Assembly: GCA_937919825.1 (NCBI GenBank)
Contig: CALFPA010000042.1
Location: 1-51,587 of the forward strand
Source: an uncultured Spartobacteria bacterium
Lineage (GTDB): Bacteria; Verrucomicrobiota; Verrucomicrobiia; Chthoniobacterales; Terrimicrobiaceae
Direction of reading: 5' to 3'
DNA: 51,587 nucleotides
The translations under genes were made by a program, and so were the position numbers. The first letter of the stretch is position 1; every line of letters starts with the position of its first letter. Positions 6,655 to 51,587 of the stretch are shown here, piece after piece. The notes under the pieces are model-generated. The model saw nothing but the letters and a program-made list of their open reading frames with translations, was not told the origin of the DNA and searched no databases.

Positions 6655-8925
<2,271 letters not shown>

Positions 8926-9228
8926 GCGACAAGGGTGGCTTCGCCACAAAAATGGGCCCCCTGCGGCGAGGCGTCCCTACCTTTGTTTTCGATAGGCGCT
9001 CCCGCGCCAGCGCGTTGAAAAATTGGAGGGCGACGCTCCGTCGGCGCCCAAATCTCAGGCGGGACGCCCGCACTACATTCCAGAAGTCTAAAAGTGATCA
9101 AATTTTGTGCGCTTTTAGGTGTCGTTCACGCTGCCATTCCAGACACCCGCCCTCCAGCAGCATGGGAAAAAACTAAAGTCAGCTCGTGTGGCTGGACAAT
9201 CAATTTACAGCATCATTCGGCGCGCGGT
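8926..9228. other. 303-bp intergenic region filled mainly by a hairpin repeat
   Basis: No gene is visible between icd and the convergent TPR gene. About half of the stretch (8935-9073) is the first copy of the dispersed hairpin repeat listed separately. The rest, 9074-9228, shows nothing I can name. The repeat's stems could serve as a bidirectional transcription end for the two convergent genes. Confidence 0.6.
8935..9073. repeat. dispersed multi-hairpin repeat, copy 1 (full length)
   Basis: Begins with the small stem GTGGCTTCGCCAC, then an arm GGCGTCCC, then GGCGCTCCCGCGCC, then a second module starting AATTGGAGGG and containing GTCGGCGCCCAAA. The same modules in the same order, reverse-complemented, occur at 13803-13949; shorter versions are at 11881, 13508 and 14223. 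It has no open reading frame of interest and resembles REP/BIME-type intergenic palindromic elements. Confidence 0.7.
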
Positions 9229-11025
9229 TCACGGGAGATATTTGGCCAAAAGCTCGCGCTCTTGGCGCGTGAGGGGTGCGATTTGGAGGATTTGCCGGAT
9301 GCGGGTGGCTTTTTCCGTTTGGCCATTGGCGGCGAGGATACAGGCGAGGATGAGTTGGTGCTGCGGGGCCAGATCGCGGGCGCGGAGTTTTTGGGCTCCT
9401 GCCGTGGCGAGCGCTTCGGCTTTGCGGCCCTGGCGGAGTTGGGCCAGCGCGAGGGTAAAGTGAAATGCGGGGTCGTCGGAGAAGTTCCTCGCGCGCTCTT
9501 CCAGCGTGGCGAGTGGCACCGGCTTGCCGAGAACGAGGTCGAGGTAGGCCATTTCGTTTTGCAATGCGGAATAGGTGGCCAGCGGACCGGCATCGGCGGC
9601 GAATTGTAGAAAATCGCGCACGGCTTGGGCATCGCCGCGTTGTTGCAGGGCCGGCGCAAGTTGCTGGATCGTCGTCAGGGCGGTGGCTTCATTGGCGAGC
9701 AAAGGCTGGCTGTATTGCCGGAAAATCTCCCCCTCTCCATCGCTTTGCAGAAAAGCGAGCGCGGGAATCAACAGCGAAGGGTTGCCGCCGCACTCGGAGA
9801 TGGCGCGGAGATAGTCGGAACGAGCCTCGCCGGGGCGGCCGATTTTTTTCAATGCCTGCCCACGGAGTAATAGCCGCATCCCGGGAGGAAACGCCTGAGG
9901 GTTCGAGTCGACGGCATGGAGCACCGCCTGCCAATCCCCGGCGGCGGCCCGAGCCTCAATCCAGAGCACGAAGGCATCGGCGCGGCTTTGAGCTTGGTCG
10001 AGTGGCAAAATCTTTTCGACTTGTGCGGCTTCGCCGTGGCGGAGCAACCAGCGGCCAGTGAGCAGTCGATCCTCGAGGGATTTTCCATAAACACGCTGGA
10101 TCATCTCCGCCACGAGACGGGGCTTTGCTGCGGGATCGGCCTCGACCTCGATTGCATCCGCCACGGCGAAGCTTTGTTCGTTGGCGAAAGGGTGCGCCCG
10201 GAGGCGGTTGAGCCATTCCGGGCGGTTGCCAGCGGGCACCACGCCGGAGAGCAGGCCGACAAGCAACGCCTCGTGCCCCGCATCGCCGTTGTTTTTGGTG
10301 ATGCCTTCGAGGAGTTCAAAAACCTGCGCATCGGACTCACCGAGGTCCGAGTTCGCGAGAAGAAATCTCGCCATGGCTCGCTTCGTGCGGTCGTTTCGCA
10401 CCGCTTGCAGCGCGAGCCGATACTCCGCTTTCGCCTCCGGGATGCGACCCTCGGATTCCAGCGTCGTAGCCCTCATGAGATGGGGAAAATCCGGCTCGCC
10501 TTGCTGCGCCACCCACCCACCGATCCAATCCGCGATCGAGGTGTAGCCTGCCTTGGAGGCTGTCACGGCGTAGGTCTTGAATTCCGGCATCGTCGCCTGA
10601 CCTGTTTCGCCGAGCTTTTGGTAAACCTCCAACGCCTCCCCCGTGCGCCCCTCCGATCCGAGAATTTGGGCCAAAATCCGAAGGGCGTCGGCATTCTTCG
10701 GCTGAAGTCGCAGCGAGGTTTGGGCGCTCATGCGTGCCGATTCCCGATCCCCCTTGGCCATATACTCGGCTCCGAGGCGTGCCAACTCTCGGGATTGCCG
10801 AGTCTCCACATAATTCACTACTGCCGAGCAGCCGGCGGGAATTCCCCAAAAAACAAGAAGCAACGACCCCGTGACAACGGCAAGCAACCCTCGATGTCGC
10901 CAAACTCCTAAAAAAATGACCCTCCAGCGCGGCGTTGGAGGCGGCGGTGGTAGGGCAGGAAAATCCTCGTCGTCGAGATCCGGAAGGTTTGGGCGCACTC
11001 GGCCGTCAGATTTTTTGGAGCCCAC
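9229..11025 (-). CDS. membrane-anchored TPR protein
   Basis: 598 residues from a GTG start at 11025. An N-terminal cytoplasmic segment with a run of prolines (about 24-31) precedes one membrane helix (about 44-66, LLAVVTGSLLLVFWGIPAG). The remainder, outside the cytoplasm by topology prediction, is made of TPR-like helical repeats, clearest at 80-150 (AEYMAKGDRESARMSAQTSLRLQPKNADAL) and near the C-terminus (ALAQLRQGRKAEALATA). Such proteins are scaffolds, and no enzyme motif is seen. It starts 13 nt after the stop of the upstream PEP-CTERM gene, so the two may share a transcript and an envelope-related role. Function unknown. Confidence 0.75.
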   Translation of the reverse strand: MGSKKSDGRVRPNLPDLDDEDFPALPPPPPTPRWRVIFLGVWRHRGLLAVVTGSLLLVFWGIPAGCSAVVNYVETRQSRELARLGAEYMAKGDRESARMSAQTSLRLQPKNADALRILAQILGSEGRTGEALEVYQKLGETGQATMPEFKTYAVTASKAGYTSIADWIGGWVAQQGEPDFPHLMRATTLESEGRIPEAKAEYRLALQAVRNDRTKRAMARFLLANSDLGESDAQVFELLEGITKNNGDAGHEALLVGLLSGVVPAGNRPEWLNRLRAHPFANEQSFAVADAIEVEADPAAKPRLVAEMIQRVYGKSLEDRLLTGRWLLRHGEAAQVEKILPLDQAQSRADAFVLWIEARAAAGDWQAVLHAVDSNPQAFPPGMRLLLRGQALKKIGRPGEARSDYLRAISECGGNPSLLIPALAFLQSDGEGEIFRQYSQPLLANEATALTTIQQLAPALQQRGDAQAVRDFLQFAADAGPLATYSALQNEMAYLDLVLGKPVPLATLEERARNFSDDPAFHFTLALAQLRQGRKAEALATAGAQKLRARDLAPQHQLILACILAANGQTEKATRIRQILQIAPLTRQERELLAKYLP

Positions 11026-46041: not shown

Positions 46042-46356
46042 ATGGCAAAAACCGCGATCCTTCGTGCCCGAGTCGATTCCGAGAAAGTAACAGCAGCCGA
46101 GCAGGTTTTTTCGAAGCTGGGCATCTCTGTTGCAGACGCCATCAATCTTTTCCTGGGGCAGGTCTGCATTCAGAAAGGTATCCCCTTCGCGCTCACCACC
46201 CGCCCGCACCTCGACCTCAGCAATGCCACCCTTTCGGAAATCGAGGAGCGATATGCCGATCGAATCCCCAATCCGCAAACATCTGCCGCCCTGAGTGAAA
46301 AACCTTCGCGGCGATTTAAGACGGCCACGCAGGCTCTCCGCTCTCTCGAGAGCTAA
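46042..46356 (+). CDS. RelB/DinJ-family antitoxin
   Basis: 104 residues. The N-terminus has the ribbon-helix-helix pattern of DinJ (ILRARVDSEKVTAAEQVFSKLGISVADAINLFLGQVCIQKGIPFAL). The C-terminal tail is longer than in E. coli DinJ. Its stop overlaps the YafQ-like toxin start (TAATG), so the pair is coupled. Confidence 0.9.
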   Translation: MAKTAILRARVDSEKVTAAEQVFSKLGISVADAINLFLGQVCIQKGIPFALTTRPHLDLSNATLSEIEERYADRIPNPQTSAALSEKPSRRFKTATQALRSLES

Positions 46357-46625
46357 TGCGCGAAATCACATTCACCAGCCAGTTCAAGCGGGATTACAAA
46401 AAACGCTCCCGCGAGAAAGGACTCGATGCCTTGCTTGAACAAACGATTGAATGTCTCGTTGCAGGTGAAGCGCTCGAATTGAAGATGAGAGATCATCCTC
46501 TGAAAGGCGGTTACGCCGGTTGCCGAGAGTGCCATCTCAAACCGGACCCGCTTCTCATTTGCATTCAGTCAGCTGATGAGTTGCGATTGGTCAGACTCGG
46601 CAGCCACAGTGAGTTGTTTGCCTGA
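46356..46625 (+). CDS. YafQ-family mRNA interferase toxin
   Basis: 89 residues with the RelE/YafQ fold. The pattern RDHPLKGGYAGCRECHLKPDPLLIC and GSHSELF carries the family's active-site His and Asp positions (H47, H60, D64, H84). N-terminal REITFTSQFKRDYKKRSREKG is also typical. It is coupled to the DinJ-like antitoxin and convergent with the second TA locus. Confidence 0.92.
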   Translation: MREITFTSQFKRDYKKRSREKGLDALLEQTIECLVAGEALELKMRDHPLKGGYAGCRECHLKPDPLLICIQSADELRLVRLGSHSELFA

Positions 46626-46673
46626 ATGATGCATTTTTTCTCCTGCTGAGCGTGAAGGTTGAGTAGTCGCGAT

Positions 46674-46970
46674 CTACTCCGAGAGCCGATAGCGCCAATA
46701 GTCTGGATCGCGGCTGTGATGCTTGAACGCCAGGATGCGAAGGTGATCCGGCCAGACGCGGTAATACACCGCAAAAGGGAAACGCGGCATCAGGTATCGC
46801 CGCACACCAGCCTCCAGGATGCTCCACCGCTCCGGAGCATCCAGAATCGCACCTATCGCAAGATCCGCCGCATCGAGAAACTGCCCGCCAAGCGAGGGAA
46901 CCCTCTACTCGTAAAACCGAGCGGACTCGATCAGCTCCGCTTCGGCATCGGGGTGATAAATCAGGCGCAT
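46674..46970 (-). pseudogene. ParE/RelE-family toxin with an in-frame amber codon
   Basis: From the ATG at 46970 the frame reads MRLIYHPDAEAELIESARFYE, then TAG at 46907-46905 (codon 22), and continues RVPSLGGQFLDAADLAIGAIL ... RRYLMPRFPFAVYYRVWPDHLRILAFKHHSRDPDYWRYRL to a TAG at 46676-46674. The total is 98 residues, normal ParE length, apart from the one nonsense codon (most family members have Glu or Gln there). It overlaps the antitoxin by 10 nt. The gene is probably inactivated by a single mutation. Confidence 0.85.
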
Positions 46971-47191
46971 CCGATAGCGCGCCGAGCAGCCCGCATCACT
47001 TCTTCGTGGGTGCGCCCCTGCACCGCGCCGGACGAAAGTTCCTCGTCCCGCCGAATGGCCTCCGTCACAGCCTCACGATCCTTTGCCGCCGCCAGACCCG
47101 CATCGATGCTCTGCCAGAGAGATTGGGCGAGAGACACTCGCTCGGAAATCGGCAGCGCCATAGCCTCGCTCGTGATCTGTTGGGTGGACAT
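46961..47191 (-). CDS. addiction-module antitoxin (Unstab_antitox family)
   Basis: 76 residues. The pattern LPISERVSLAQSLWQSID and the C-terminal RTHEEVMRAARRAIG fit the small unstable antitoxins paired with ParE/RelE-like toxins. It lies directly upstream of and overlaps the broken toxin gene by 10 nt. With the toxin inactivated, this antitoxin is no longer under selection as a pair but may still repress its promoter or neutralise related toxins. Confidence 0.82.
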   Translation of the reverse strand: MSTQQITSEAMALPISERVSLAQSLWQSIDAGLAAAKDREAVTEAIRRDEELSSGAVQGRTHEEVMRAARRAIGCA

Positions 47192-47221
47192 GGAAAAAAA
47201 TTAGCCTCTCAAGAAACTCCG

Positions 47222-47338
47222 GTCAAACAGAACATCTCCGATGACCCATGACCACTTGGTTCTGGCATGGCTCCTGGCCCGCGAAGCGGAAAAAGCAGGA
47301 GGCATGGCGGAAGTGCCGCAGGCATCGGTTCTTTTGAC
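47222..47338 (-). other. attC-like recombination site, distal end of the cassette array
   Basis: Read on the minus strand it begins GTCAAAAGAAC, then CGATG (L-like box), and ends CATCGGAGAT then GTTCTGTTTGAC, so the outer 11 bp and inner 5 bp of both ends are complementary. The middle can fold further (GCACTTCC, CCATGCC...CATGCC). Length 117 bp, in the attC range. It follows the stop codon of the small ORF at 47340 and marks the left limit of the array as I can see it. Confidence 0.7.
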
Positions 47339-47339
47339 T

Positions 47340-47777
47340 TTACTTTTTATCCTCTTTCACTGCGGCTAAAATCAAACACTTGCCATTCGCAAATCCCGCT
47401 GGAAAGACCAGCCCTTTGCTTGGCGCTTTGCTTTCATCCATGTTCAGGTTAAAGATCCATTCCCCGTTGAGAGTATATGCAACTCCATCTGGAACCGCAT
47501 GCATCGGCCCCGTATCGACTCGTTCGCTCGTATAAACATAATGAGATGGCCATGAAAATACCTTATCTGTTGTTCTTTGCATTGCCTTCGCAGCTCCCGG
47601 CTCAGTTCCCTCCAAATTAAAGCATCTCTGAAATGCAGCCCCATCCCGCGCATTGATGGCCGCTTCGACTTCTGCGACCAACTCATCGGGGGTGGTCGCG
47701 GTAAAAGCACAGCAAGAAGAAAACAAGAATAGAAATGCAGCGCGATTCAAAGTGATTCTCATAAATGCTTTTGTCAT
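47340..47777 (-). CDS. cassette ORF: small secreted protein
   Basis: 145 residues from the ATG at 47777 (an ATG at 47762 is an alternative). The N-terminal signal sequence (MRITLNRAAFLFLFSSCCAFTAT) is followed by a 120-residue domain (TTPDELVAEVEAAINARDGAAFQRCFNLEGTEPGAA, LNGEWIFNLNMDES) of unknown family. The stop is inside the attC-like site at 47222-47338. Composition is less GC-rich than the chromosome. Confidence 0.65.
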   Translation of the reverse strand: MTKAFMRITLNRAAFLFLFSSCCAFTATTPDELVAEVEAAINARDGAAFQRCFNLEGTEPGAAKAMQRTTDKVFSWPSHYVYTSERVDTGPMHAVPDGVAYTLNGEWIFNLNMDESKAPSKGLVFPAGFANGKCLILAAVKEDKK

Positions 47778-47867
47778 CAGGTGAATGTGTAAAGGAAGGT
47801 TTGAGGGCTACTGTGTGGAGTCAGGAGTGCAGTTACCGCGTCGCCGGGGTTCCTTGGTTCGACAATT

Positions 47868-48605
47868 CTATTCTTCAGATGGCTTATCCATCATCCACCA
47901 AGGGGTATTGATGAACTTGGCACCATCATCCTTATCGTAGAAGCGATGCAAGGCGTCATTCGTGAAGTAGCGCCAGAACTCCGGCTCGTATTGCTTGTCG
48001 ATGATCTGGAATGCTCCCTTCTTCTCCTGCTCCTTCAGAAAATCCCGATAAGCGTCAAGCGGCTCGACGCCTGCCTGCTGGAAGATCACCCGTCCTCCGT
48101 ATTGCGCGTAAAGTGCCTTGTTGATCTTCCACGACTTGACGAACTGCTGTGCCATTTGGCGCTTCATGGGGCGCATCTGCTCTTCCATCCCCTTGCTCAT
48201 CTCCTTCGCTTCTTGGGTGGACTTCAGAATGCGCTCGATGGTCTGAAGCTGGGATTCCTTTTCCTTTCGATCCTGATCACTGAGGGAGGTTGCCTGCAAC
48301 TGCTGCTGCAACTTCGCCCTGTCTGCCTCGAACTTGGCTTGAGTTTGTTTCTCCTTCTCCTCTAACTTGGCAACGAAGGCATCCAGTTCCGCCTCCGAAG
48401 GTTCAAACTTGTTTTCTTTCGCATACTGCTGAAGGAGCGCGCTGAAAATCAAGCCGTTGAGTTTGTCCATTTCCCCGGTGGTTATCTTCTTCCCGAGGAC
48501 AACTGCGATCACATCTGTATCCGTCGCGCCTGCCTTGGGGCTATCGGTTTCGGCGAAACACGACACCGCCAGCATGATCATCCCCACTGTGAGCATATGT
48601 TTCAT
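47868..48605 (-). CDS. cassette ORF: exported coiled-coil protein
   Basis: 245 residues with a signal peptide (MKHMLTVGMIMLAVSCFAET). Residues about 65-150 are charged and Lys/Glu/Gln-rich with a heptad-like rhythm (KLEEKEKQTQAKFEADRAKLQQQLQ, KEKESQLQTIERILK), probably a coiled coil. The C-terminus has a Trp/Tyr-rich block (QYEPEFWRYFTNDALHRFYDKDD). The N-terminal VVLGKKITTGEMDKLNGLI recalls the start of SurA-like chaperones, but I see no rotamase domain. AAAGGAAAGAG before the ATG is a better ribosome-binding site than most cassettes have. Confidence 0.65.
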   Translation of the reverse strand: MKHMLTVGMIMLAVSCFAETDSPKAGATDTDVIAVVLGKKITTGEMDKLNGLIFSALLQQYAKENKFEPSEAELDAFVAKLEEKEKQTQAKFEADRAKLQQQLQATSLSDQDRKEKESQLQTIERILKSTQEAKEMSKGMEEQMRPMKRQMAQQFVKSWKINKALYAQYGGRVIFQQAGVEPLDAYRDFLKEQEKKGAFQIIDKQYEPEFWRYFTNDALHRFYDKDDGAKFINTPWWMMDKPSEE

Positions 48606-48654
48606 ATCTCTTTCCTTTATCTGTCGAAGATTGTTTGGTTACAAAAAGGTCTAT

Positions 48655-49092
48655 TCATTTTTTGTTGGAAGATGAGCATTTAGATTGAAGCAACTCGACT
48701 TCGACGATCTTCTGAATATTGATTTTCGATGCTTCGGAAAACTCGTCTAACCGAGGAGCAAAATGCTGTTTCGCGCGGGTGGCTATTTGTTCGTGAAGTT
48801 CCTTCATACCAAGCTTGCTGGATATTCCAGTCAAAACGACCACCAAAAAAGAAAGGGGGATCGTATCAATTTGCTCTAATGCTCCAAAGCTCCCATCTGT
48901 GGCTAGAAAAGTCAGCTTCTTCGCGCGGTCGATGTTACCCTGCTGTAAATTTTTGTCGATGTTAGTGAGCCACATCAAAGTCGCATAATTCGAGGCTCGC
49001 GCAATGCGGGTGACTCCAATGTAGCCGCCGAAAATATATCCAGAAATGACGAAAATGATGGCTGTAACAACTGCAATGATGGCGGTTTTCAT
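48655..49092 (-). CDS. cassette ORF: membrane-anchored protein
   Basis: 145 residues from the ATG at 49092 (MKTAIIAVVTAIIFVISGYIFGGYIG), giving one N-terminal membrane helix, then a helical domain (NYATLMWLTNIDKNLQQGNIDRAKKLTFLATDG, PLSFLVVVLTGISSKLGMKELHEQI). No family recognised. The start lies 7 nt from the GTTTAGG box of an attC-like site at 49100-49180, through an A-rich leader ending AGAAT, as in other cassettes of the array. Confidence 0.68.
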   Translation of the reverse strand: MKTAIIAVVTAIIFVISGYIFGGYIGVTRIARASNYATLMWLTNIDKNLQQGNIDRAKKLTFLATDGSFGALEQIDTIPLSFLVVVLTGISSKLGMKELHEQIATRAKQHFAPRLDEFSEASKINIQKIVEVELLQSKCSSSNKK

Positions 49093-49099
49093 ATTCTTT

Positions 49100-49180
49100 C
49101 CTAAACATCCCCGATGACCGGCACCTGCCCATAGCGTAGTCCGTGCCGGGCGAGGAACGAATCCATCGAAAACCAATAAA
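49100..49180 (-). other. attC-like site (degenerate left box)
   Basis: On the minus strand it ends ATCGGGGAT then GTTTAGG, with a stem CCGGCAC...GTGCCGG inside and a CGATG box at the far side pairing with CATCGG. The left outer box is poorly conserved (no AAC). It fits the series as a partly decayed attC. Confidence 0.55.
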
Positions 49181-49206
49181 ATAGACTTGCAACCTGCTGC
49201 ATAAGA

Positions 49207-49524
49207 TTAACTATTGGCTCGAAATACTTGCTCCAAAAAGAACGAGAGGGTGACAATCCCAAGAAGGATGGATGTTGATCCAGTAAAGGCAAATATCTTT
49301 TTATTCTTTCTGTTGATAAACGCCACAATGCCCCAAGCTGCTGTCATCAAGCCGAAAAAGCCGCATCCAAGTGCGTAAAGAAGCAAGAACATGTCGCCAA
49401 TCGGCGAGGAATAAGCAAGTCGATGTCCTGCAAATACAAAAAATGCCATTCCGCAGATAATCCCGCAGCAAATTGAAAGCAGTGCTGCCTTTGGCAAAGA
49501 TCGTGGAAGAATCAAAGAAGCCAT
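49207..49524 (-). CDS. cassette ORF: small polytopic membrane protein
   Basis: 105 residues from the ATG at 49524 (MASLILPRS). Three membrane helices (about 10-30, 40-64, 73-95; LLSICCGIICGMAFFVFAG, MFLLLYALGCGFFGLMTAAWGIVAFI, IFAFTGSTSILLGIVTLSFFLEQV). No family recognised. It is 22 bp downstream of the preceding cassette ORF with no attC-like site between, so the two probably travel together. Confidence 0.65.
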   Translation of the reverse strand: MASLILPRSLPKAALLSICCGIICGMAFFVFAGHRLAYSSPIGDMFLLLYALGCGFFGLMTAAWGIVAFINRKNKKIFAFTGSTSILLGIVTLSFFLEQVFRANS

Positions 49525-49546
49525 ATCTGGATGCGCTGGTTCGGTA

Positions 49547-49870
49547 TCATCCTCTGGGTTGCCGGGTGACCTTCTTATCCATGTCCACGATAAACTGAAC
49601 CTCGTCGTCGTCCACCCGCTGGCTCTGCTCCCAAACAACCTCCCACGCCTGTCCGCCTCGGGCCTCTCGCCCTGGAATCAGGCGAACCGAGTAAAGGTAG
49701 TGATTCGACAAATCGATCTTGTGCTCCTTCGCGTAGACCTCCGCCAAGTCGATGGCTGCCCTGAGAGTCAGCGAGGGCCGAGTCTCTGGGAGGTTCAGAC
49801 CTCGCTGCAACGCAAACACATCACATTCAGATGATAAATTCAGCAATAGCGTCGCAGTGATGATCTTCAT
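49547..49870 (-). CDS. cassette ORF: small secreted protein
   Basis: 107 residues from the ATG at 49870 (MKIITATLLLNLSSECDVFALQ, a signal-like start). The segment SLTLRAAIDLAEVYAKEHKIDLSNHYLYSVRL, then AWEVVWEQ and VQFIVDMDKKVTRQP, has the beta-rich look of PepSY-like small exported proteins, but the match is loose. It starts 40 nt after the right box of the attC-like site at 49911-50023. Confidence 0.62.
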   Translation of the reverse strand: MKIITATLLLNLSSECDVFALQRGLNLPETRPSLTLRAAIDLAEVYAKEHKIDLSNHYLYSVRLIPGREARGGQAWEVVWEQSQRVDDDEVQFIVDMDKKVTRQPRG

Positions 49871-49910
49871 ACTTGTTAGACGGAAAATGCCGAGTGGTGC
49901 TGCCATGTCG

Positions 49911-50023
49911 CGGAATCTCCCCGATGACCTATCCCTTCTTGATTCTGACATCCGAGCCTGCTCCGCAGGCGAAATGCCAGAAGTGCCGCAGGGATAGGAA
50001 TTAAACGGATTCGTTTGTTAGCC
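49911..50023 (-). other. attC-like recombination site
   Basis: 113 bp. On the minus strand the left box GGCTAAC overlaps the stop codon of the DUF3592-like ORF, as is common for integron cassettes. The inner core ACTTCTGGCATTTCGCC with the terminal hairpin GCCTGC-GGA-GCAGGC matches the sites at 50501 and 50953. CCTATCCCT pairs with AGGGATAGG. The right box is degenerate (GATTCCG). Confidence 0.7.
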
Positions 50024-50494
50024 ATTTTTATTTTGCTTCACCAGGCTGAGAATACGAAAAACAAGAAATAGCGCAATCCCTGCGCCAGCAATGATCCATG
50101 TTGAATTCGATGCACCTCTTTCGACCACGGCTATTGAAGGAATAAATGGGATGTAGTAAACGGGAATGTTAGCCGCAGCCTGTTTGTCTTTGATATATTG
50201 TTGGGCGTTCGGTTCATATGTGAAACTGAGACCGCCGACCCGTGTAAAGCCACCGAGATATGATTTTCCATCGACTTTATATTCGTAGATGATATCCGGT
50301 GAAAAGGTCCGCTGGGCCTTCGTCGAGTTTGAACAGTGCACCGTGCCGCTCAAGAGCTTTCCGCTTGTCGTCGGCCAAGATAAGGTGCTCAACCCGGCGA
50401 CAAGCAGAGTGACGCCAGCAATCGCAATAACCAAGCCGAACCCGCAGAGGACGAAATAAAGAAAGCTTTGGCGTGGACTTGGAAGAAGGCTCAT
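50018..50494 (-). CDS. cassette ORF: DUF3592-type membrane protein
   Basis: 158 residues from the ATG at 50494. Two membrane helices, near 10-38 (FLYFVLCGFGLVIAIAGVTLLVAG) and at the C-terminus (TWIIAGAGIALFLVFRILSLV), enclose an outside domain with the DUF3592 pattern: TTSGKLLSGTV, PDIIYEYKVDGKSYLGG and IPVYYIPFIPSIAVVERG. The family's function is unknown. The stop codon TAA lies in the attC-like left box GGCTAAC. Confidence 0.75.
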   Translation of the reverse strand: MSLLPSPRQSFLYFVLCGFGLVIAIAGVTLLVAGLSTLSWPTTSGKLLSGTVHCSNSTKAQRTFSPDIIYEYKVDGKSYLGGFTRVGGLSFTYEPNAQQYIKDKQAAANIPVYYIPFIPSIAVVERGASNSTWIIAGAGIALFLVFRILSLVKQNKNG

Positions 50495-50500
50495 ATTTCT

Positions 50501-50614
50501 GGACAACATCCCCGATCACTTGCTCCCACTTGCTTTCGGCATCCGAGCCTGTTCCGTAGGCGAAATGCCGGAAGTGCTGAAGGCATAACGATTAGGTCCA
50601 TCGGCTCGTTGTGC
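50501..50614 (-). other. attC-like recombination site (best example)
   Basis: 114 bp. On the minus strand: left outer box GCACAAC, spacer GAG, inner box CCGAT; then a foldable middle (CACTT with AAGTG, CGGCAT with ATGCCG, terminal loop GCCT...AGGC); inner box ATCGG, spacer GGAT, right outer box GTTGTCC. AAC/GTT and CCGAT/ATCGG are exact complements in the R and L positions of an attC. The next ORF's ATG follows 6 nt after the right box. Confidence 0.78.
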
Positions 50615-50624
50615 ATTATTTTGT

Positions 50625-50948
50625 TCACGGCCCCACCCCATCTTCGAATATCTCGCCGTCAATGAAGTGATGGATAGTTAGCTCTCCGCCCATTCGGCCC
50701 CCTTGGTTGTTGAAGAAATAAACATAGGCGAAACCCTTCTTCGGGTGACTTTCGCAAAATTCCAATGAGACCCTGGTAAGATACTTGCCGGTATAGTTGT
50801 TTTTTGTTTTGCCTGATAGAAACTTGTGAATCACTTGGGTTGATTCAAAAAGCGACATCTTTTCGGCGAGGAAGCCTTGCTCCATCCCAAAGCTGAGACT
50901 GTGCAACGCAATCATCGTGACGATAAATACGAAGATCGGCTTTTTCAT
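50625..50948 (-). CDS. cassette ORF: small secreted protein
   Basis: 107 residues from the ATG at 50948, 4 nt after a GTTTGGC box. The signal peptide MKKPIFVFIVTMIALHSLSFGM precedes a domain with GKYLTRVSLEFCESHPKKGFAYVYFFNNQGGRMGGELTIHHFIDGEIF, a beta-rich pattern with no family I recognise. GC content is clearly below that of the chromosome to the left. Confidence 0.68.
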   Translation of the reverse strand: MKKPIFVFIVTMIALHSLSFGMEQGFLAEKMSLFESTQVIHKFLSGKTKNNYTGKYLTRVSLEFCESHPKKGFAYVYFFNNQGGRMGGELTIHHFIDGEIFEDGVGP

Positions 50949-50952
50949 TCTT

Positions 50953-51066
50953 GCCAAACGACCCGCATCACCTATCCCTACTTGCTTTTGGCACCAAAGC
51001 CTGCTCCGCAGGCGAAATGCCAAAAGTGTCGAAGGCATGGGAGTTAAGTGCATCGTTCTGTTCGAC
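50953..51066 (-). other. attC-like recombination site
   Basis: 114 bp. The stop codon of the right-hand cassette ORF lies inside it. On the minus strand the outer boxes are GTCGAAC and GTTTGGC. The middle has CTTTTGGCA pairing with TGCCAAAAG and the perfect terminal hairpin GCCTGC-GGA-GCAGGC. The core sequence is nearly the same as in the sites at 49911 and 50501. Confidence 0.75.
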
Positions 51067-51493
51067 TATTTTGTTTGTTTAGGATGATCGTAGATACAAA
51101 AGCCAAAAGGAACAAAAAGAAGGCCGCAGTGTAAGCAATTACAGGAAATGGGATTGCTTCGACAACTACGCGGTAAGAAAAGAAGAATATACCGAAGACC
51201 TCTCTCCAAGAGTAGAAGCCCAGCCACAGTAGCGCACAACTCAGGCCAATCACAAAAAAGCGATTGAACCAAGCATAAGGCAGAAGCAACAAACTCGCGA
51301 AGGATATGAATGGAAGGGTTTTAGTCAAGAAGATGTCAATCAATAGAGTTTTGCTATGATCTTGGATTGGACGGACAGCCTCCGCAGCAAGAATTTGCGA
51401 ATAAACAGAAGTCCATGTGGTAACTGCCGCATAAAGAAACCAGAGGGCGACGCAGACTCCAAGGAGTCGGATGGAGATGGTGAGGGTCTTCAT
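51044..51493 (-). CDS. cassette ORF: polytopic membrane protein
   Basis: 149 residues from the ATG at 51493, 6 nt after a GTTCGAC box. Four membrane helices (about 5-27, 57-77, 80-98, 112-138; LLGVCVALWFLYAAV, LPFISFASLLLLPYAWF, FFVIGLSCALLWLGFYSW, VIAYTAAFFLFLLAFVSTIIL). No family recognised. The C-terminal residues SRTERCT and the stop are encoded by the attC-like site, a usual feature of cassette ORFs. Confidence 0.65.
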   Translation of the reverse strand: MKTLTISIRLLGVCVALWFLYAAVTTWTSVYSQILAAEAVRPIQDHSKTLLIDIFLTKTLPFISFASLLLLPYAWFNRFFVIGLSCALLWLGFYSWREVFGIFFFSYRVVVEAIPFPVIAYTAAFFLFLLAFVSTIILNKQNSRTERCT

Positions 51494-51499
51494 ATTCTT

Positions 51500-51536
51500 G
51501 TCGAACGCCCCGCGATCGGTGGATCGCATTGTTGGC
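51500..51536 (-). other. compact attC-like palindrome
   Basis: 37 bp. On the minus strand: GCCAAC, spacer AAT, then GCGATC-CACC-GATCGC (perfect), spacer GGGGC without the final bases shared with the box, then GTTCGAC, and 6 nt to an ATG. It has the outer and inner boxes of an attC but almost no loop region. It may be a deleted attC or an unusually short one; the sequence to its right ends with the window. Confidence 0.5.
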
Positions 51537-51587
51537 ATTATTTTATTCGTTTGTTCCAGTATCCAGGTTCTCGGCTGCAATGCATCA

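Follow-up and report, generated by a model that had tools for sequence, protein, structure and literature searches.

Integrons have already been recorded for Verrucomicrobiota (PMC8618304), and the arrangement of boxes, UCS and VTS in attC sites has been described (PMC6393395). Clusters of attC sites lacking an integrase (CALINs) are a standard category, the counts of which are inflated by draft genomes (PMC9024848). Off-target insertion, loss of intI and rearrangement are given as origins of CALINs (PMC8618304). We found no paper naming both "integron integrase" and "Spartobacteria" in the literature searched.

The window is the whole stretch of 51,587 nucleotides that was analysed. It is the entire contig C42 of a 2.71 Mb draft genome in 143 contigs (99% complete, 1.3% contamination). 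The original prediction assigned it to a Verrucomicrobiota-type chromosome, which was correct, as the relatives are Spartobacteria MAGs. It further read the end of the window as an integron-like cassette array, and each proposed test that could be run supports this. We regard it as nearly certain that the region is an integron gene-cassette array.

The cassette array and its attC sites

As predicted, eight small ORFs are found on the minus strand within 47340-51580, in the last 4.4 kb of contig C42. The features of the region are as follows.

46042-46625, plus strand: RelB/YafQ toxin-antitoxin pair (PF04221, 40 bits; PF15738, 97 bits)
46668-47232, minus strand: distal toxin-antitoxin (TA) cassette (PF09720), comprising an antitoxin (46961-47191) and a ParE-like toxin frame (46674-46970)
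47227-47334, minus strand: attC site A, decayed (26.4 bits, E 2e-4, blind model)
47340-47777, minus strand: cassette ORF, 145 aa, no assigned function (ORF call; 84% DNA copy in G001:C15)
47806-47863, minus strand: possible short attC relic, tentative (by eye; unreported by the models)
47868-48605, minus strand: cassette ORF, 245 aa (N terminus weakly similar to SurA, below cut-off)
48655-49092, minus strand: cassette ORF, 145 aa (ORF call; no Pfam match)
49100-49180, minus strand: attC half-site D, consisting of the L'-R' half (GGTCATCGGGGATGTTTAGG) with no R''
49207-49524, minus strand: cassette ORF, 105 aa (ORF call; no Pfam match)
49547-49870, minus strand: cassette ORF, 107 aa (ORF call; no Pfam match)
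49910-50023, minus strand: attC site F, mutated in R' and L'' with the inner stem preserved (65.3 bits, E 9e-14, blind model)
50018-50509, minus strand: cassette ORF with DUF3592 (PF12158, 36 bits), stop codon within site F
50501-50614, minus strand: attC site G, every box intact (86.7 bits, E 6e-19, blind model; fold)
50625-50948, minus strand: cassette ORF, about 107 aa, ATG 5 nt past the right box of site H (no Pfam match above cut-off)
50953-51066, minus strand: attC site H, L' altered (91.4 bits, E 5e-20, blind model)
51044-51493, minus strand: cassette ORF, start chosen 6 nt past the right box of site I
51500-51537, minus strand: attC site I, type-2 with terminal structure deleted (17.5 bits, E 0.002, model R2)

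The sites at 47227, 49910, 50501, 50953 and 51500 are all on the minus strand with ORFs between them, giving the pattern of an integron array: small ORFs in the same orientation separated by sites at a spacing below 4 kb. The RelB/YafQ pair is located directly behind glmS and before the array, and belongs to the flank, not to a recognised cassette; copies with 67-71% identity occur in further genomes of the genus. Pfam gave no function for most cassette ORFs. The product of the ORF at 51044-51493 is, judging from its sequence, probably a membrane protein.

Repeated imperfect palindromes of 115 nt are found at 49919, 50510 and 50962, and two blocks of this repeat are seen again at 47230-47328. 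The repetition is real, but the sites are 70-76% identical in ungapped alignment, not near-identical as first described. The core GGCATTTCGCC, said to be shared by three sites, occurs exactly three times in the window, once inside each of sites F, G and H. The claim that stop codons fall inside the palindromes is borne out by two ORFs, which end at 50018 and 51044. At 49100, 50501, 50953 and 51500 the right box is followed by an ATG within 5-7 nt, again as described, and the DUF3592 ORF likely starts 7 nt past the right box of site G.

As single-stranded DNA, site G is predicted to fold into an outer R''/R' stem with AAC/GTT, an unpaired spacer, an L''/L' stem with CCGAT/ATCGG and a terminal hairpin. 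The best sites of relatives fold with the same arrangement, and the L'' arm of the relatives' sites is broken by an unpaired base, as an extra-helical base would do. The fold z-scores are -3.9 for site F and -2.2 for site H. The palindromes have no match in Rfam.

A covariance model, R1, was built from eight sites, those of the window among them. Of the 16 genomes of the genus, 14 have matches to it; in the genome studied here the matches are on contig C42 only. To avoid circularity, a blind covariance model, R3, was built from 16 sites, all from other genomes. This model recovers the window sites H (91.4 bits), G (86.7 bits), F (65.3 bits) and A (26.4 bits), four sites at E<=2e-4, and scores site I weakly at 12.4 bits. 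The blind search excludes that the palindromes of the window arose by chance. Among the 16 sites of R3, 85% of the cells are paired and 40 double changes are counted, compared to 15 when shuffled and 2-8 with slid partners; the alignment was fitted to the structure and these counts lean towards it. The blind model, the folds and the covariation together give at least two attC sites with a folded R''-L''-VTS-L'-R' structure.

Sites F, G and H are attC sites. Sites A (47227-47334) and I (51500-51537) are decayed or truncated attCs. A second attC subtype of the genus has the form AACAATGCGATCCACCGAA...GGTGATCGCGGACGTT; site I is this subtype minus its middle, and agrees with the type-2 5' motif at all but one of 19 nt. 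By eye, 49100-49180 and 47806-47863 look like half-sites. Half-site D was not detected by the blind model at 49100-49180, and differs by one mismatch from the type-1 3' motif.

The integron integrase and cassette exchange

The original prediction noted that the window holds no integrase and called for a search of the flanks. No intI was found on the window contig, and an IntI scoring above the family cut-off is encoded on another contig, C91 (67597-68346; TIGR02249, 355 bits against a cut-off of 265), where it is truncated by the contig end. A complete intI, an N-terminal piece of intI elsewhere and the attI pattern are all absent from this assembly. IntI or a piece of it is present in nine of the 16 genomes of the genus.

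The closest relative (approximately 92% identity) is LacPavin_0818_WC45_MAG_58_13 (JAPLTG010000003), of the same genus and referred to here as G007. It carries a complete integron with the same attC type. Its contig C29 is collinear with C91 (91.6% over 6 kb). On it, intI (8090-9634) is followed by attI, by an array that contains classical attCs and attCs of the lineage type, and by a last attC before glnA. This last attC is 82% identical to window site G. The attI of G007 and that of G014 are near-identical through ...ACCAAACAACGTT and unrelated beyond this point. Residues 174-484 of the G007 IntI align with V. cholerae IntI4 (PDB 2a3v) over 311 residues, nearly the whole IntI4 chain, including the IntI-specific segment. 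One ORF in the G007 array (L036:10832-12142) is unusually long for a cassette, 436 aa, and is cassette-like; by eye its product has the look of a secreted glycoside hydrolase.

We read the locus as a chromosomal integron cassette array in a freshwater Spartobacterium. In brief, by analogy with known integrons each cassette would consist of one to three promoterless ORFs and an attC predicted to fold as single-stranded DNA. The lineage IntI, encoded elsewhere in the genome, would bind the folded strand and cleave the right box between its G and TT. Circular cassettes would then be inserted at attI or excised, which cassette junctions in relatives support. Recombination of the window attC sites by IntI is putative. 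Taken jointly, the identity of the array and IntI as its cognate enzyme are very probable.

Comparison of relatives was proposed as a check for cassette gain and loss, and cassette content does differ between them. The best-resolved case is a TA cassette on the glnA side, which is near-identical in G000 and G007 from GTT on, while the preceding attC differs; identity begins at the predicted G/TT crossover. The distal TA unit of the window has copies of 84-95% identity in four other genomes and a 203-bp piece in a fifth. The copies end at the R' GTT of site A or close to it, and their flanks differ. The cassette of the 145-aa ORF at 47340-47777 (dN/dS 0.52) is found at 84% identity in G001:C15, beside an attC half of its own. 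None of the window cassettes was found in the intI contigs of the relatives examined. By comparison, not by experiment, the cassettes appear exchangeable with junctions at G/TT of R'.

The IntI of the genus has an extra N-terminal region of about 165 aa that is 31-38% identical to its own core-binding (SAM-like) domain. It is found in G007 (L036:8093-9547) and in L111, L112, L113 and L125. Apparently the core-binding domain was duplicated, as read from the sequences. The region is under purifying selection (dN/dS 0.17), and no comparable match was found in IntI of the other taxa compared. This extra core-binding domain is the most unusual feature found; it does not lie in the window, and the genome's own, truncated intI did not show it. 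AlphaFold modelled IntI poorly (mean pLDDT 48.7, 4 sequences); the N-terminal helices stood at about 65-83.

Location of the array and alternative explanations

Behind glmS, contig C42 carries RelB/YafQ, the TA unit and the array, and then ends at 51587. In G007, glmS, a nucleotidyltransferase/HEPN-like pair (from reading the ORFs) and ftsH follow one another on one contig. In the genome studied here, ftsH is preceded by another TA pair and begins 607 bp from the left end of C91. At this left end of C91 (L083:3-478), a ParE/antitoxin pair beside ftsH is oriented like the window cassettes and is possibly a further cassette. No overlap between contig ends was found that bridges the gap.

Based on synteny, we favour the order glmS-array-gap-ftsH ... 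intI-gap-array-glnA, a contig order that rests on a single relative, G007. The array would then be positioned between glmS and ftsH, approximately 65 kb from intI and in the opposite orientation, which would make it a CALIN. Any of the three origins of CALINs listed above is possible for it. The genome's own glnA, on C15, bears an array remnant of its own, so that the window array either forms a second locus or arose through an inversion; on the same ground, we rejected the window array as a direct continuation of the glnA array.

Since all four relevant contig ends are open, a 68-kb inversion relative to G007, covering all of C91, could instead have attached the array to intI. Its breakpoints would be inside the cassette array and between glmS and ftsH, with attI and intI beside 51587 and the distal cassettes left at glnA. 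The minus-strand orientation of the array puts attI at the right, where the original prediction expected it; with C91 flipped, intI, attI and the array would take up the canonical divergent order, and a single event would cover both the array at glmS and the remnant at glnA. However, the closest relative does not show the rearrangement that this requires, the TA pair before ftsH fits the syntenic order too, the attC type is found on several contigs in some family members, and the decay of the sites suits a disused array. We consider the inversion possible, yet less probable than the syntenic order. An artefact, in which binning or misassembly joined a cassette contig of another organism to glmS, is very unlikely: the draft has 143 contigs and cassette arrays assemble badly, but the array shares its contig with glmS-glgC, which is 93% identical to G007, both the attC type and the distal TA cassette are those of the genus, and completeness and contamination have the values given above. 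That the palindromes have nothing to do with integrons, being repeats of the REP-like or terminator kind, is scarcely credible. They are repeated, imperfect, placed after stop codons and without an Rfam match, as such repeats could be, but the same palindromes genome-wide, named beforehand as a refutation, were not seen: within this genome the sites occur at this one locus, in cassette context only. G007 moreover has the same sites in an array beside attI and intI, and the cassette junctions are at or near G/TT. With the sites at one locus and G/TT junctions, we rejected this reading.

R3-type sites are present in 19 of 26 genomes of the family and in three of five genera, in some genomes on many contigs. 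In G017, G016, G020 and G002 the same attC type is found on many separate contigs, possibly as scattered chromosomal cassettes, a scatter that fragmented assemblies could exaggerate. One may speculate, though we think it improbable, that the integron of the family is a scattered system, in which the IntI with the duplicated core-binding domain inserts in trans at many chromosomal places, where single attCs and small CALINs decay. In G002:C76 (L138:9119-9798), at least four attC sites lie beside a frameshifted 5' intI remnant; this array is a CALIN made by intI decay within the same genus.

Decay of the array and comparison with known integrons

The R/L-box arrangement claimed for the sites (AAC...GTT outside, CCGAT...ATCGG inside) is complete in site G alone and damaged in F, H, A, I and D. 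Site F has lost GTT (GATTCCG instead) and the L'' match, and in site H L' is changed. Compared to the G001 copy, site A lacks approximately 15 nt of its 5' (R''/L'') half. The terminal structure of site I is gone, and half-site D has no AAC box. Nor are all ORFs separated by palindromes, as first stated: at two of the seven ORF junctions (48606-48654 and 49525-49546) no site is visible, and 47778-47867 holds a relic at best. In the distal TA cassette a stop codon interrupts the ParE-like toxin frame; in G001 the frame is open (98 aa), and intact copies of the cassette exist in relatives.

As several outer boxes are mutated or deleted, the array is degenerating. It is partly dead, with damaged boxes in most sites and a broken distal TA toxin. 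Present-day mobility is doubtful, given the two siteless junctions and the damage to most sites. What becomes of an array that is probably apart from its integrase can here be read site by site, and a close pair of genomes displays cassette turnover at crossover points. For an uncultured freshwater group, the findings document integrons both intact and in decay, and the attC models can be used there.

Compared to the complete integron of G007, the window array has the same attC type and belongs to the same genus, but no window cassette was found in the G007 integron. The G007 array is located between intI and glnA, and its glmS-ftsH region is without an array. With at least two attC sites, no integrase on the contig and intI elsewhere, the locus resembles a CALIN (Cury/Neron, PMC9024848), except that the missing neighbour may be real or an assembly gap. 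The likeness to sedentary chromosomal integrons of the Vibrio superintegron type consists in IntI, attI, lineage-conserved attC sites, cassette genes of mostly unknown function and TA cassettes. In contrast to these, the array is short, many of its sites are decayed, the part in the window is probably away from intI, and the IntI of the genus has an extra N-terminal domain. Since the genome encodes its own IntI on another contig, we regard the locus as a worn-down case of a known gene-capture system and nothing new in kind. As integrons are already listed for Verrucomicrobiota (PMC8618304), it extends what is known of them and leaves its kind unchanged.
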